The notes beneath the pieces are model-generated. The model was given only the letters and a program-made list of their open reading frames with translations, did no database searches and had not been told where the DNA came from. From a virus, in the IMG/VR virus record IMGVR_UViG_3300031972_000819, positions 1 to 38,709 of that record: a stretch of 38,709 bases of DNA, one strand, 5' to 3'. Below are positions 2,447 through 9,839 of this stretch, piece after piece. Within the stretch, counting starts at the first letter, position 1; each line of letters starts with the position of its first letter. The position numbers were made by a program, and so were the translations under genes.

Positions 2447-4057
2447 ATGGATCAACGTAAAAAAATACTAGAACGAATGTATGTAGACCCTTTTTTCTTT
2501 GCTAAAGTTTTATTTGGCGATAAAGAAAATCCTATGCATTATCACTTGCGTTGCGAATCGCCCCAATTTCATCGCGATATATTTAAAGCCTTACAAGACC
2601 TAGACGTTGGCGAAAAAATAGCGATAGTCGCGCCAAGAGGCCACGCAAAAACGACTTTAGTATCTTTGATATACCCATTGCATCAAATATTATTTGGTAA
2701 TGAAAAATTTATTTTACTTATATCTGAATCAGAAACACAGTCTAAGTATTTGCTAGAGGCTATAGGAAACGAAATAGAATATAATAAAAAAATACACGAA
2801 TACTTTGGTAACCGTATGGGGCCAACGTGGGGTAAAGAAGAAAAAGAAGTTATAACAAGTTTTGACGAAAACGGTGAAGCGTCCGGTTTATGTAAAGTTT
2901 TAATTAGAGGAACTGGACAAAAAGTTAGGGGTTTGAAGTATGGTGCATATAGACCTACATTAACTATCATTGATGATGGTGAAGGTGAAGCAAATACCCT
3001 TACTGAAATGTCAAGAGATAAGTTTAAACGGTGGTTTAACGCTGCTGTTATTCCGGGCTCTACCGACGCTAGGCTTTGTTTTATTGGAACCATTGTTGAC
3101 GATAATTCGTATTTGAATAAAATTGCTGGGAGACGCTCTTTTAATAAACTTGGTGAGAGAATTGTCAAAGGATGGAAGACGCTTTTTTATCAAGCCATTC
3201 CACAAAATGTGGAGAATGGACAATTCATTGCCTCCGGAAAAGAGTTTCGCAGCAATAAAAAAGTTAAAGTATTATGGAAGGAGCATAGACCTTATAAGTG
3301 GCTAAAGGCAGAAAGAGACAGATTGAAGTCTGAAGGCCACGTTTCGTTTTTTTATCAGGAATATCAAAACATTCCTATGGATGATTCATTTCGTATATTT
3401 AAAGAATCAGATATACAATATTGGGATGGATACTATTCAAACGATGCAGGTCAATCTTATGTTACGAAAATTACAGACCAAGGTGAAGAAAGAGTTCCTG
3501 TTAACACTTTTATGGGTGTTGACCCAGCTTCCTCGGAAAGCGTCAAAGCTGACTATACGGTCATAATGGTTATAGCAGTTGATCCTGATTTTAATATTTA
3601 TGTGATTGACTATTTTAGAGGGCAAGTATCTCCAATGGATGGTGCTGACCGAATTTTTGCTATGGCTGACATGTATTCTCCTAAAGATATAAAGATTGAG
3701 GAGACAGGTCACGTTATGTTAGCAGATTATATTCAACGGACTTCTAAGGAAACAGGAAGGTTTTTAAACATTAATGGCAAGAAAGCTATTAAAAACAAAT
3801 ATTACAGAATTAAACAAATGCAACCGTATTTTGCATCAAAAGCTATATTTATTAAAGAAACCCATTTTGATTTAATAGATGAACTGTTGCAATTTAAGGA
3901 AGTTGGTTCGTTTAAAAAAGATACACTTGATGCACTTAGATGGGCACTTGATGATGTGTGGAAGCCAAATCTTACATACAGAAATAAGGCTTGGATGGAA
4001 CCTGAAAACGATAAAATAAAGGCTGACTGGGAAACTGGTCAAGTATTCTATAGCTAA
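2447..4057 (+). CDS. terL: Terminase large subunit
   Basis: A 536-residue packaging ATPase-nuclease, of normal length for the family. Walker A is APRGHAKTT at residues 62-70. Walker B is LTIIDDGE at 172-179, with the catalytic acid at 179 or 181. The coupling motif is around CFIGTI (211-216). The C-terminal RNase H-like nuclease shows its first acid in GVDPA (D359), a second in KIEETG (E418/E419) and a third in KDTLDALRWALDD (D492/D495). It cuts concatemeric DNA and drives it through the portal using ATP. It directly abuts the upstream small gene and overlaps the portal start by one base (TAATG). All key residues are present, so it should be active. Identity is secure. Confidence 0.96.
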   Translation: MDQRKKILERMYVDPFFFAKVLFGDKENPMHYHLRCESPQFHRDIFKALQDLDVGEKIAIVAPRGHAKTTLVSLIYPLHQILFGNEKFILLISESETQSKYLLEAIGNEIEYNKKIHEYFGNRMGPTWGKEEKEVITSFDENGEASGLCKVLIRGTGQKVRGLKYGAYRPTLTIIDDGEGEANTLTEMSRDKFKRWFNAAVIPGSTDARLCFIGTIVDDNSYLNKIAGRRSFNKLGERIVKGWKTLFYQAIPQNVENGQFIASGKEFRSNKKVKVLWKEHRPYKWLKAERDRLKSEGHVSFFYQEYQNIPMDDSFRIFKESDIQYWDGYYSNDAGQSYVTKITDQGEERVPVNTFMGVDPASSESVKADYTVIMVIAVDPDFNIYVIDYFRGQVSPMDGADRIFAMADMYSPKDIKIEETGHVMLADYIQRTSKETGRFLNINGKKAIKNKYYRIKQMQPYFASKAIFIKETHFDLIDELLQFKEVGSFKKDTLDALRWALDDVWKPNLTYRNKAWMEPENDKIKADWETGQVFYS

Positions 4058-6092: not shown

Positions 6093-7004
6093 ATGGCTAA
6101 AGAACAAGCACAGATAACCGACATCGTAGGTGGGGATAACCCAAAAGGCGACTTTATGTTAGATACATTAAATGAATTTAACAAAGGTGTACCACAGGGC
6201 TCTCCTGATGAAAATCAAACAGACGGTGAAGTTTCTGAGGAAAAAAGTGCCAACTCTGAAGTACAAATGACAGAAGCAGAAGCAAAAACTTGGTTAATTG
6301 AAAACAAATTCCCCGACAACGAGGAAGGACGTTCTAAATTAGCAGAGTCTTACAAAAAGCTTCAAAGCGAAAAAGATAAAATGTCAAATGATTATCAAAC
6401 TAAAGAAGAAAAATACAAGCAACTAGATAGCTTGGATACTTTTTTAAAAGATAATCCTGAGGTTGTATCTAAAATGCGTAATGAAATTCAAAAGGTAAGC
6501 AACGCAACTGTAGCGCCTGAGAAACCCGAGGACTATGACCCTTACGAGGAAAATGTTCCCGGTTCTACATCTCAACAATGGCGTGAATTGCAAGATCAGT
6601 ATCTTATCAGAATGGGCTCTGAAGGCGCAAAGCAAGAACTTAATAAGTTCAGGCAAGAGCTTCAGGCTGAAAAAGCAACCCAAGCTGAGATAGATACATT
6701 GAATAACCTTGGATTAAATAACGAAGAAATACAGGAATACAGGGACTTTATTAATGACCCTAATGTAGTTACTCCTGAAAATCTCGTTAACATTTGGAGA
6801 TATATGAGTGGCAAAAGGAATAACGAAACTGCATCTACTAATCCCAAAAACTCTAATTTGCAAGGTTCGAGCGGTCGAACGAGCATCGCGAGTGTAAGCG
6901 GAGTTACGCCTTCTCCGAAGAAATCGTCAGATAAGCAAAAAGAAGATTTTTTTGATGGACTTATGCAGTTTTCTAATAATTACTCCAATTTGAAAGGTAA
7001 GTAA
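6093..7004 (+). CDS. Capsid scaffolding protein
   Basis: A 303-residue, acidic, low-complexity and coiled-coil-rich protein located between portal and major capsid genes, the standard place for a scaffold. Residues about 70-120 (AESYKKLQSEKDKM and following) are strongly heptad-like; the middle is Pro/Glu-rich; a second helical part lies around 155-215. The C-terminus is Ser/Thr/Lys-rich and ends in a short hydrophobic-basic segment with DFFDGLMQFS, resembling capsid-binding tails of scaffolds. A ribosome site, CGGAG, precedes the ATG. No protease domain is visible, so it is a pure scaffold unless processing is supplied elsewhere. The call is based on position and composition. Confidence 0.8.
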   Translation: MAKEQAQITDIVGGDNPKGDFMLDTLNEFNKGVPQGSPDENQTDGEVSEEKSANSEVQMTEAEAKTWLIENKFPDNEEGRSKLAESYKKLQSEKDKMSNDYQTKEEKYKQLDSLDTFLKDNPEVVSKMRNEIQKVSNATVAPEKPEDYDPYEENVPGSTSQQWRELQDQYLIRMGSEGAKQELNKFRQELQAEKATQAEIDTLNNLGLNNEEIQEYRDFINDPNVVTPENLVNIWRYMSGKRNNETASTNPKNSNLQGSSGRTSIASVSGVTPSPKKSSDKQKEDFFDGLMQFSNNYSNLKGK

Positions 7005-7009
7005 TACTT

Positions 7010-8521
7010 ATGGCTAATACTTCATATGGAACTGGAACCGCAATGCAATTCAGCGATGGAACGCAAAGACAGGTTTTAGAACTCGGAAGTAAAATTCACT
7101 ATTACAACCCCGATGTAACACCAATCTTCTCACTATTTGGAATGAGCAGTATAGCAACGCCTGTACCGATTTTTGAATGGATGGAAGATGAGCATATGAT
7201 AAAGCGTAGCGTAAAAGTAAGCTTTGCTGGTGGAAGCGCTGGAGCAGATTCAGGAACTACAGTTCTCTCTGATACCGCAACAAGTGGCGTCAATGGAGAA
7301 AATGCTGTTGTTAACTTCCCAAGACAAGCTCAAACAGAAATGTTTGAAGTTGGTGGAATCTACAGTGCTACTCTAGCTGGTTCAGCTTCTATGGCAACTG
7401 ACGTAACTCACTTAATCTGTATCGCTATTGGTAAAGATGTTAATGTAACATCACCTAGCGACAGGTCAGTGCAGTTTGTTGGTGCACACGTTCACGCATC
7501 ATTAAACGCTTATAATACAGAAGCAATTGCTGGTGGAACAGATATTATCGGTTTTAACACCGATTCAACTCTGACACTATCTTATGTTGCTACTGCTGGT
7601 CAGCTTTATGACAATGGTACAGCTGTATCACAATATGGTTACCAAACTCACAGTGGAACTAACGGTTTTGGCGAAATAAACTTTGCTGATGCTGATTATT
7701 TCATGGTTGAGGGTGGCCCTGGTCAATATGCTGAAGGTGCTGGCGTTGGTTTAGAAACACGAAAAAAAGTACGCAGACTAAAGAACTGTACACAGATTTT
7801 CCGTGAACCTTATACCATCACTGGTACAGCAGACGCTTCCAAACATTATGGCGGTTCAGAACTTGCGCGCTTACAAGCTCGTAAGCTTGCTAAAATCAAA
7901 GTAGATTGTGAAAATGCTATCTTAACTCAAGGTAACATTTCACTTGACGCTACTTCTGAAAACCCAAAAAGAACCTTCGCAGGTTTTGGTATTGGGCAAT
8001 CAGCAAGCACAGGTTTTGTTCAGTCACTTGATGGACGCGGAGATACTAATATGCAACTTGGCTACTCAGCCGGAACTATGAATAACATGGATGATATATG
8101 TGAATATATTTTCCACGATATGGTTGCAGGATCTATGCGTAAGACAGTGTTTGCATCGAATAAGTGGCTAAAGAAGATGTCCTCTATGGTTCGTATGGGT
8201 ACTGGTGCTGGCACCGGTACAACAGCGTTCTATGATTTAGGTGACTCTGCTCAAGCTGCTGGTGTTCGCGTGCGTCGATTCGTTGGCGCAGTTGGTGAAT
8301 TAGACTTTATTCCACACCCTCTATTAAATGGTGCTAACGAAGATTATGCACTTGTTGTCGACCCAGCGAACTTTAGTGTTCGCCCATTATCAGGTCGCGA
8401 TATGCAGCTTCGCAGTGACATAGTTAAAGATGGTCGTGATGGACAAACCGATGAATGGCTAGTTGAGTTTGGCGTGGAAGCACGCAATGAACAGACTCAC
8501 GCTATTTTAAAGTTAACTTAA
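7010..8521 (+). CDS. Major capsid protein
   Basis: A 503-residue protein immediately downstream of the scaffold. It starts MANTSYGTGTAMQFSDGTQR and has the early motif YYNPDVTPIFSLFG typical of HK97-fold capsid proteins (N-arm followed by a TP-F segment). A Gly/Ala/Ser-rich stretch around residues 65-110 probably contributes to the E-loop region. The C-terminal part (FIPHPLL, YALVVDP, MQLRSDIVKDGRDGQTDEW) matches the P-domain/A-domain ending common in such capsid proteins (compare DUF5309/SU10-like capsids). It would form the icosahedral shell. It is followed by a strong hairpin, consistent with terminating or stabilising an abundant transcript. The family assignment within the HK97 fold is inferred. 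Confidence 0.9.
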   Translation: MANTSYGTGTAMQFSDGTQRQVLELGSKIHYYNPDVTPIFSLFGMSSIATPVPIFEWMEDEHMIKRSVKVSFAGGSAGADSGTTVLSDTATSGVNGENAVVNFPRQAQTEMFEVGGIYSATLAGSASMATDVTHLICIAIGKDVNVTSPSDRSVQFVGAHVHASLNAYNTEAIAGGTDIIGFNTDSTLTLSYVATAGQLYDNGTAVSQYGYQTHSGTNGFGEINFADADYFMVEGGPGQYAEGAGVGLETRKKVRRLKNCTQIFREPYTITGTADASKHYGGSELARLQARKLAKIKVDCENAILTQGNISLDATSENPKRTFAGFGIGQSASTGFVQSLDGRGDTNMQLGYSAGTMNNMDDICEYIFHDMVAGSMRKTVFASNKWLKKMSSMVRMGTGAGTGTTAFYDLGDSAQAAGVRVRRFVGAVGELDFIPHPLLNGANEDYALVVDPANFSVRPLSGRDMQLRSDIVKDGRDGQTDEWLVEFGVEARNEQTHAILKLT

Positions 8522-8543
8522 GTCTGATACTTCATAATCAATG

Positions 8544-8588
8544 TTTAGGGGGCAGGTCATGCGTGTAAACGCTCTATCTGCCCCTAAA
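8544..8588 (+). terminator. Hairpin after the major capsid gene
   Basis: TTTAGGGGGCAG (8544-8555) pairs with CTGCCCCTAAA (8578-8588), an 11-bp GC-rich stem with one bulged G. The 22-base loop contains a smaller GCGT/ACGC stem. It is followed by an A-rich, not T-rich, sequence, so it may be a partial terminator or a 3' stabiliser of capsid mRNA that also sets downstream expression lower. Its position just after the capsid gene is typical. Confidence 0.65.
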
Positions 8589-8613
8589 GACATAAAAAAA
8601 GAAAGGCTTTAAA

Positions 8614-8721
8614 ATGCCAAAAGTAGGAAAAAAGAAATTTCCTTATACAAAAAAAGGAAAAGCTGCTGCAAAGCGTGCAAAGTCAACTACGCCTAAAAAA
8701 GCAATGAAAAGAAAATATTAA
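8614..8721 (+). CDS. Tiny basic protein (MPKVGKKKFPYTKKG type)
   Basis: A 35-residue protein starting MPKVGKKKFPYTKKGKAAAK and ending KKAMKRKY, nearly half Lys/Arg. I recognise the opening pattern from small proteins encoded next to capsid or connector genes in marine phages; function is not established. The ATG follows GAAAGG, a usable ribosome site eight bases upstream. It is the first gene after the capsid hairpin. Strong basicity suggests binding to packaged DNA or to the acidic capsid interior. Short, but the family-like pattern and good ribosome site support it as real. Confidence 0.65.
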   Translation: MPKVGKKKFPYTKKGKAAAKRAKSTTPKKAMKRKY

Positions 8722-8722
8722 G

Positions 8723-8815
8723 TTGAAAAGCAAAAAAATAAAAAAAGAAACTAATTTGTTTTTAATTTGCGTTATGAATGGATTTAAAAAAATCTTTGGT
8801 AAAGGTTACAAGTAA
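8723..8815 (+). CDS. Doubtful tiny frame between two basic genes
   Basis: A possible TTG-started frame of 30 residues (LKSKKIKKETNLFLI then CVMNGFKKIFGKGYK), or a 13-residue peptide starting at the ATG at 8774 (MNGFKKIFGKGYK). Its stop overlaps the ATG of the next gene as TAATG, the coupling pattern used by many genes here, which is the main reason to list it. Neither start has a convincing ribosome site. The peptide would be basic and amphipathic. It may be only a leader that couples translation of the following gene. Confidence 0.25.
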   Translation: MKSKKIKKETNLFLICVMNGFKKIFGKGYK

Positions 8816-8943
8816 TGACTGAAACAACTTACGGTACTGGTGCGACAGTGTTTTCTGATGGAAGCACACGAACAGTTAGTGGTTTGCAAAAAATGAGAAA
8901 AAAACGCAAAAAACGTAAGACAAAAAGTAAAAGAAAAAAATAA
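8815..8943 (+). CDS. 42-residue protein: capsid-like N-terminus plus polybasic tail
   Basis: The first ~22 residues, MTETTYGTGATVFSDGSTRT, closely match the start of the major capsid protein (MANTSYGTGTAMQFSDGTQR): both have T-YGTG, then FSDG, then a Thr/Arg segment. After SGLQKM the protein becomes almost entirely Lys and Arg (RKKRKKRKTKSKRKK). The frame is bounded by TAATG overlaps at both ends, at 8813-8817 and 8941-8945. So it probably arose from a capsid-gene 5' end fused to a basic tail, or it retains an N-terminal signal shared with the capsid. It may be an internal head protein that is recruited with the capsid and binds DNA; that is inference. Confidence 0.6.
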   Translation: MTETTYGTGATVFSDGSTRTVSGLQKMRKKRKKRKTKSKRKK

Positions 8944-9839
8944 TGAGATATAGAGAAGCATATCAATTAATTGACGCAGCTTTACATAAAGCAGAGATTG
9001 GGTTTCCAGTTACAGAGGTTTTAAAAGCAACGTTTTTTGACCAAGAGGTAGAAAACATAGGATTACGAGTTGTAAAAAAATCAATAATGCAAAGTTTTAC
9101 TGCGTCAGGCAAAGAATTTGTTTTAACAGACAGCAAGCGCACTAATAAAATTTATAAAGTAGAAATAGAAGATGGAACAGGCGCAACAAAGTCAGTTCCT
9201 TTTGTAGACGATTCTGTTATGTTTTTCAATACAGACGAAGATACAATTGCTAATTTAGCTTTTAGTGTTAGAACAGATGCTACATCAGGAAGTATGAGTG
9301 CTGGAACTAGAGCAAATCCTTGTGCTATTACAGCTGCTTCTCATGGATTAGATACAGGTGATTTTGTTATTTTTAGTGAAGTTGTAGGTTTAGATCATGA
9401 TACAACAGGTGTTAACGCGCTAAATGGCAAACGACTTGCAATTACAAAGGTAGATGATAACTCATTTACAGTAGCTGTAAATACAAGCTCAGGATACGGA
9501 GGAAATGCTACAGCAGGAAAATGGCAAGAGGATACGTTAAAAATAGTTTTTAATAAAACTCCGTCGGCAAGCAGCACTGCAATAAGAGTTTTTTATTATG
9601 CAAGACCTGAACCAAAAACAGACAATACAAGTCGTGTAGACCTTCCAGGTCAATTGGTTCCTTGCGCAATACACAGAACGGTTGCACAAATATTAAATCT
9701 TGACGGAAATTTACAATTAGGTTCAGGACATAGAGGCCTCGCGAAAGCATTAGAGAGTGAATATATGGGCACGGATAGAGCAAGGGAAGCAATGCCTGAC
9801 CTTGTATCTATGCCGTTGCAAGATTTTGTAAATAAATAG
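8943..9839 (+). CDS. Head-tail connector/adaptor-like virion protein
   Basis: A 298-residue protein in the place of the first connector gene after capsid. N-terminal helices (YREAYQLIDAALHKAEIGFP) and a C-terminal helical part (QLVPCAIHRTVAQILNLDGN, then AKALESEYMGTDRARE) would form the adaptor fold that docks on the portal. In the middle, about residues 120-180, is a beta-rich insert with ITAASHGLDTGDFVIFS and NGKRLAITKVDDNSFTV, the pattern of the small beta domain known from E1-FCCH-like repeats in phage virion proteins. It overlaps the previous stop by TAATG. Connector is the best call; an attached decoration role for the insert is possible. Confidence 0.6.
   Translation: MRYREAYQLIDAALHKAEIGFPVTEVLKATFFDQEVENIGLRVVKKSIMQSFTASGKEFVLTDSKRTNKIYKVEIEDGTGATKSVPFVDDSVMFFNTDEDTIANLAFSVRTDATSGSMSAGTRANPCAITAASHGLDTGDFVIFSEVVGLDHDTTGVNALNGKRLAITKVDDNSFTVAVNTSSGYGGNATAGKWQEDTLKIVFNKTPSASSTAIRVFYYARPEPKTDNTSRVDLPGQLVPCAIHRTVAQILNLDGNLQLGSGHRGLAKALESEYMGTDRAREAMPDLVSMPLQDFVNK

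Follow-up and report, generated by a model that had tools for sequence, protein, structure and literature searches.

A micropeptide with a polybasic tail that mimics the N-terminal arm of the major capsid protein in a group of uncultured marine phages

Introduction

What could be the role of a phage protein of only 42 residues that begins like the major capsid protein (MCP) of the same genome and ends in a run of lysines and arginines? Such a protein is encoded in the window analysed here, namely the whole of IMG/VR record IMGVR_UViG_3300031972_000819 (38,709 nucleotides), where its start lies 1.8 kb from the MCP start, as given in a first-pass annotation of this DNA. That annotation offered two explanations, either a capsid gene duplicated, eroded to its 5′ end and fused to a basic tail, or a shared N-terminus acting as a signal that targets a DNA-binding micropeptide into the head. 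Two questions follow. First, is the likeness to the capsid protein genuine and maintained? Second, what would a capsid-like start joined to a basic tail do in a phage head?

Results and Discussion

The micropeptide gene and the capsid protein

The ORF at 8815–8943 on the plus strand is an open frame with an ATG start. Its product is MTETTYGTGATVFSDGSTRTVSGLQKMRKKRKKRKTKSKRKK, with the N-terminus reading MTETTYGTGATVFSDGSTRTV, and has no match in PHROGs or Pfam. The Lys/Arg-rich run said to follow the capsid-like start is indeed there, accounting for 14 of the 18 residues from 25 to 42. The stop codon shares one base with the start codon of the next gene (TAATG). The head genes of the window are ordered as terminase, P22-like portal, acidic scaffold candidate, MCP and adaptor-like genes (Table 1).

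Table 1. Coordinates of the head-gene features in the window.
Feature	Position	Strand	Remarks
Terminase large subunit	2447..4057	+	phrog_38, E 2.2e-77
Putative scaffolding protein, 303 aa, acidic	6093..7004	+	Position between portal and MCP
Major capsid protein, SU10_MCP family, HK97 fold	7010..8521	+	PF17236, E 4.9e-35; phrog_1328; PDB relatives 9in6, 7z45, 9ny2
MCP N-arm segment common to the micropeptide, codons 1–25	7010..7084	+	
RNA hairpin between MCP and small ORFs	8541..8593	+	−31.7 kcal/mol, z −5.5 (for 8519–8615)
Second polybasic micro-ORF, 35 aa, phrog_33179-like	8614..8721	+	Without the capsid motif
42-residue capsid N-arm mimic micropeptide gene	8815..8943	+	Stop codon included
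N-arm-like segment, codons 1–24	8815..8886	+	Y-G-T-G-x3-F-S-D-G-x2-R-x-V-x2-L; Y6, G7, T8, F13 and G16 invariant (n = 26 sequences)
Polybasic tail, codons 25–42	8887..8940	+	14/18 K/R
Adaptor/tail gene	8943..9839	+	Weak, sub-threshold SU10_adaptor match

The MCP of the window begins MANTSYGTGTAMQFSDGTQRQV / MANTSYGTGTAMQFSDGTQRQVLELG and matches SU10_MCP (PF17236) over residues 19–501 with 121.9 bits, against a gathering threshold of 24.1; its nearest solved relatives are the capsid proteins of Vibrio phage VP1 (9in6), Pseudomonas phage Pa223 (9ny2) and SU10 (7z45). Since the MCP belongs to this HK97-fold family, the stretch that it has in common with the micropeptide is the N-arm of an HK97-fold protein. 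The micropeptide is not itself a member of the capsid family (SU10_MCP, PF17236; HK97 core), as only the N-arm of ~24 residues is common to both. The N-arm appears to be ordered in the mature VP1 shell, because 398 of 399 residues are present in the modelled chain of 9in6. In the P22 procapsid the N-arm holds on to the scaffold, and on maturation it turns into a loop reaching into the adjacent subunit (PMC9965877). AlphaFold models of the MCP have a mean pLDDT of 59 and 66 and leave residues 1–65 unresolved, and hence say nothing on docking.

The putative scaffold has no significant family match. In relatives it carries a net charge of −15 to −39, and a C-terminal DF(W/M/F)xG(I/L)M motif, likely the capsid-binding end, is kept in all clades.

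Likeness of the micropeptide start to the capsid N-arm

Local alignment of micropeptide residues 1–21 with MCP residues 1–22 gives 13 identities and one gap at a score of 55, which is reached with P = 0.0002 when the N-terminal part is shuffled 5000 times; the second-ranking ORF of the window scores 31. Because the alignment holds in at least 51 distinct homologues, the match is far beyond chance, and the resemblance claimed from the window is thus borne out. The same conclusion is reached with profiles. Comparison with the capsid N-termini of relatives, which the first-pass annotation had suggested as a check, gives matches with E values of about 1e-6. The micropeptide profile A1 matches the MCP N-termini of micropeptide-carrying relatives as well as those in 11 contigs of a micropeptide-less clade (E 1e-6 to 3e-4), the MCPs of which had no share in building the profile. 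Reciprocally, when 46,620 six-frame segments are searched with an MCP N-arm profile made from the micropeptide-less clade only, micropeptides are the highest-ranking hits other than MCPs. F, R, V and L stand at equal distances (F, F+6, F+8, F+11) in micropeptides and MCP arms, while the micropeptide has one residue fewer between G9 and F. A chance match is ruled out by the shuffles, the reciprocal profiles and the collection-wide pattern scans.

The two starts might instead have converged with no binding partner in common, for instance as a translation-initiation or disorder-prone sequence, and it would fit with this that the motifs of MCP and micropeptide, searched genome by genome for co-variation, show none. 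We regard convergence as very improbable, given the 8–10 identical residues at equal spacing, the reciprocal profile matches and the pattern scan of the viral collection, in which the MCP spacing close to an N-terminus was found in MCPs only and the pattern in no other N-terminus.

Micropeptides are no more similar to the MCP of their own genome than to those of other genomes, with an amino acid identity of 0.5875 for own-genome and 0.587 for cross-genome pairs (permutation p 0.51) and a same-codon fraction of 0.30 in both cases. This comparison of codons and residues rules out recent duplication or gene conversion; the likeness is therefore old and kept at the protein level, and shows no sign of ongoing conversion. 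The N-arm segment of the micropeptide probably arose once from the 5′ end of the MCP gene, long ago. The micropeptide mimics the N-arm of the MCP.

A conserved family under purifying selection

Homologues were sought in loci with MCP relatives (79 fetched, then 80 more, with overlap) and in contigs from the pattern scans. The search recovered at least 51 distinct sequences of 36–50 residues with a net charge of +7 to +16 in related IMG/VR contigs, so the frame, whose absence from all relatives would have spoken against the first-pass annotation, is present in them. The pattern [YT][GS]T[GN]x3F[ST][DN]G[STQ]x[RK]x4[LI], with a basic tail of 14–26 residues behind it, describes 51 distinct sequences. 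Across the 51 members, K/R make up 48–82% of the tail (median 72%) and acidic residues number at most one. In the 26-sequence alignment A1, G9, S14, D15, R19 and L24 are nearly invariant, next to the five invariant positions given in Table 1. Wherever both regions of a contig are readable, the MCP arm YGxGx4F...RQ(V/I)LEL is present alongside the micropeptide.

A scan of the whole viral collection (2.9 million contigs) for Y-G-T-G-x3-F-[ST]-D-G returned 68 stretches. The readable matches are short ORFs in which the motif is followed by a basic tail, with the exception of three unrelated places (L086, L140 and L142), and the N-terminal motif is hence essentially confined to the micropeptide family. 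Searching the MCP or the micropeptide by tblastn against 50,697 phage records gave no significant match; no cultured phage or described family with such a micropeptide, and no phage peptide of its kind in the literature, was found. The capsid N-arm mimic micropeptides are a new family, of which the principle has known analogues, as discussed below.

The motif has a pooled dN/dS of about 0.25 and the tail one of 0.34, rough values with synonymous sites near saturation, and the gene is under purifying selection. A spurious A-rich ORF is ruled out by these ratios, by the constant charge of the tail and by the presence of the gene throughout the window clade (termed D). The same data bear on the first of the two original explanations, a partial MCP-gene duplicate that is eroding or neutral and has no function. 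The N-arm likeness itself would be expected from such a duplicate. However, the ratios of 0.25 and 0.34, a frame intact in every D-clade genome checked, two stable genomic positions and the constant tail charge already contradict it, own-genome pairs are no more alike than cross-genome pairs, and we consider it scarcely credible. The other original explanation, an N-terminus that serves as a head-targeting signal, is the better of the two and fits the conservation and location of the gene, with packaging and DNA binding being its conjectural parts.

Distribution and placement among related phages

The micropeptide gene is conserved and selected, follows clade lines and lies in the head-gene operon, at two places. 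In the D clade it is found between the MCP and adaptor genes; within the tree set, all 49 D-clade genomes with a readable MCP–adaptor region carry it and none is without. Genomes of a second clade (U) carry it immediately 5′ of the terminase gene, several kb from the MCP region. The MCPs of the U clade also bear the N-arm (MAQTYGAGTTTQFNDGTQRQVLEL, MPNTYGAGTATQFSDGTQRQVLEL). In one U subclade, YSTG/TSTN replaces YGTG in the micropeptide and FTDGSSRLxTTL is kept, while the MCP retains YGAG. A third group (N) has the same MCP arm, no motif micropeptide and other polybasic ORFs behind the MCP. The MCP motif is therefore independent of the micropeptide.

The micropeptide is truly absent from L217, L238, L267, L268, L271 and L272, which are readable on both flanks. 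A supposed lack in L049, L056–L064, L072 and L076 proved false wherever the upstream region was covered, the gene being located upstream of the terminase.

The D, U and N groups are distinct in a tree built from terminase, portal and MCP, with the micropeptide-less group set off by one branch (ultrafast bootstrap 92). The root is placed differently by midpoint and by the distant outgroup L317, with low support. Since the root differs by method, one gain or one loss of the micropeptide plus one relocation are both compatible with the tree.

In most homologues the stop codon and the start of the following gene overlap or nearly do so, the overlapped start being that of the adaptor in one clade group and that of the terminase in the other. 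From these partners one may picture the micropeptide as a part of the portal vertex or neck, where the peptide would fill the N-arm site of a missing MCP subunit and the basic tail would touch DNA or portal. Nothing else points to the vertex, though, and the location may merely mirror the order of the head operon; we hold a vertex part to be improbable.

A proposed role: a capsid N-arm mimic carrying a basic tail into the head

How then might the two halves of the micropeptide work together? We give roughly even weight to the proposal that it is a capsid N-arm mimic ferrying a DNA-binding tail into the head, a proposal in which the docking site, presence in the virion and DNA binding are all conjectural. 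Here, the N-terminal ~24 residues imitate the N-arm of the phage's own MCP and the final ~18 form the polybasic tail. During procapsid assembly, the peptide would dock at the site of the MCP N-arm, be it the MCP-binding end of the scaffold or a groove of the neighbouring MCP, and would thereby become enclosed in the head. The Lys/Arg tail would then extend toward the lumen, where it could bind the incoming DNA, neutralise charge and hold the outer layer of the DNA at the shell. More tentatively, and somewhat short of an even chance in our estimation, a phage family may have copied the docking arm of its own MCP to fix a protamine-like tail inside the shell, so that the lattice gains DNA-binding tentacles in trans. 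No description of such a docking-arm-copy device was found for tailed phages.

The N-arm mimic reading is supported by the matching reciprocal profiles, the equal spacing, the near-exclusive motif, the complete presence in the D clade, purifying selection, the preserved tail charge and the place of the gene in the head operon. The role of the P22 N-arm as scaffold dock and later inter-subunit loop, and the apparently ordered arm in VP1, speak for it as well. Against it stand the lack of motif co-variation, the loss of Tyr-Gly in one clade and a sister clade without the micropeptide. Polybasic ORFs do occur in that sister clade at the same place, as would be expected if, contrary to the first-pass annotation, the basic tail could be kept without the capsid-like start; homology between them and the micropeptide is, on the other hand, not demonstrable.

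The micropeptide might otherwise act in assembly only. Its N-arm-like end would bind scaffold or MCP and its basic tail would bridge the acidic scaffold, tuning procapsid nucleation, size or vertex, and the peptide would neither be kept in the virion nor contact DNA. The acidity of the scaffold candidate and its C-terminus kept in all clades speak for this, as does the N-arm of P22 being the scaffold dock (PMC9965877). There is a precedent in CpmB of SaPI1, which has the terminal motif of the scaffold and competes for the scaffold's capsid site (PMC5644958). However, there is no sign of transient action, and the sister clade has the same type of scaffold and other polybasic ORFs without an N-arm mimic. 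We judge a purely assembly-related function unlikely.

Several known systems resemble the proposed N-arm mimic in part. The internal proteins IPI–III of T4 are, like the micropeptide, small head proteins, which are brought into the head by a short N-terminal CTS, and their Lys residues touch DNA phosphates (PMC3012670). The CTS differs in that it sends proteins to the scaffolding core, and it is not presented as copying the MCP N-arm (PMC3012670); the T4 proteins are also larger, and the micropeptide is known here from sequence. A prohead protease, such as would cleave a T4-type tag, was not noticed among the portal, scaffold and MCP genes of the window. In adenovirus, VII is a polybasic DNA-binding core protein, the N-terminal peptide of which takes a capsid pocket used by the N-terminus of another virion protein, VII and VI having this hexon pocket in common (PMC8156859). 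Adenovirus belongs to another virus realm, and VII is much larger and matures by proteolysis, so the analogy is one of working and not of homology. SaPI1 CpmB, compared with the scaffold of 80alpha, is a small protein that re-uses the terminal motif of an assembly protein and takes the same capsid site (PMC5644958). Unlike the micropeptide, CpmB carries the motif of the scaffold rather than the MCP, serves the size redirection of a satellite and lacks a polybasic tail. The closest in capsid are the SU10/VP1/PaP2-type podophages (PF17236-like capsids), which have a related MCP and a similar order of portal, scaffold-position gene and MCP. The 8 deposited relatives of this type that were inspected have other N-arms (e.g. 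MATIAGLRGTGDW) and no such polybasic ORF directly behind the MCP.

If the N-arm mimic reading is true, copying the capsid's docking arm and fusing it to a short effector tail would be a simple way for a virus to add a function to a fixed capsid lattice. The reading would also account for some of the many polybasic micro-ORFs that stand without annotation in the head operons of phages, offer a 24-residue tag with which cargo could be loaded into SU10-type capsids, and give a testable handle on DNA organisation near the shell of tailed phages.

Other elements behind the capsid gene

The hairpin between the MCP gene and the small ORFs is kept in relatives, where 6 of 10 pairs show compensatory base changes and a U-run is usually lacking. 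It may be an element for the processing, stability or attenuation of mRNA that parts the MCP from the downstream genes. Tails of Arg and Lys commonly bind RNA, and in the D clade this conserved, covarying hairpin adjoins the micropeptide gene. The micropeptide could then be a regulator, the tail binding phage mRNA (e.g. this hairpin) and the N-arm-like end sensing free MCP or scaffold to give feedback on the head genes. In the U clade, however, the gene is several kb off, upstream of the terminase, and such a regulator appears decidedly improbable to us.

A 30-codon ORF with a TTG start (MKSKKIKKETNLFLICVMNGFKKIFGKGYK, 8723–8815) terminates on the micropeptide's start codon. The closest relatives retain this ORF, which may serve translational coupling alone. 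Besides the second polybasic micro-ORF (8614–8721), further small polybasic ORFs occur in the head-gene regions at 1568–1750, 1760–1930 and 1955–2248, and one of these four has DUF6321, a domain located at the C-terminus in larger phage proteins (‘YCARSLGQLK’). Since other clades bear different polybasic ORFs behind the MCP, this region looks like a hotspot of basic micro-ORFs. In some relatives the MCP–adaptor interval holds consecutive arrays of polybasic ORFs (L256, 5756–6810; L270, 2807–3700; L271, 8101–8830), e.g. MPYGKGTYGKKRGRPSKK and MAVKRKSKKDPRLARAGVSGYNKPKRTP.

As to the host, two related phage contigs (L273 and L274), one of which bears the micropeptide, were placed by binning in the MAG Candidatus Marinimicrobia bacterium UBA7303, which is a lead, rather than proof, pointing to Candidatus Marinimicrobia as the host of this uncultured marine phage group.
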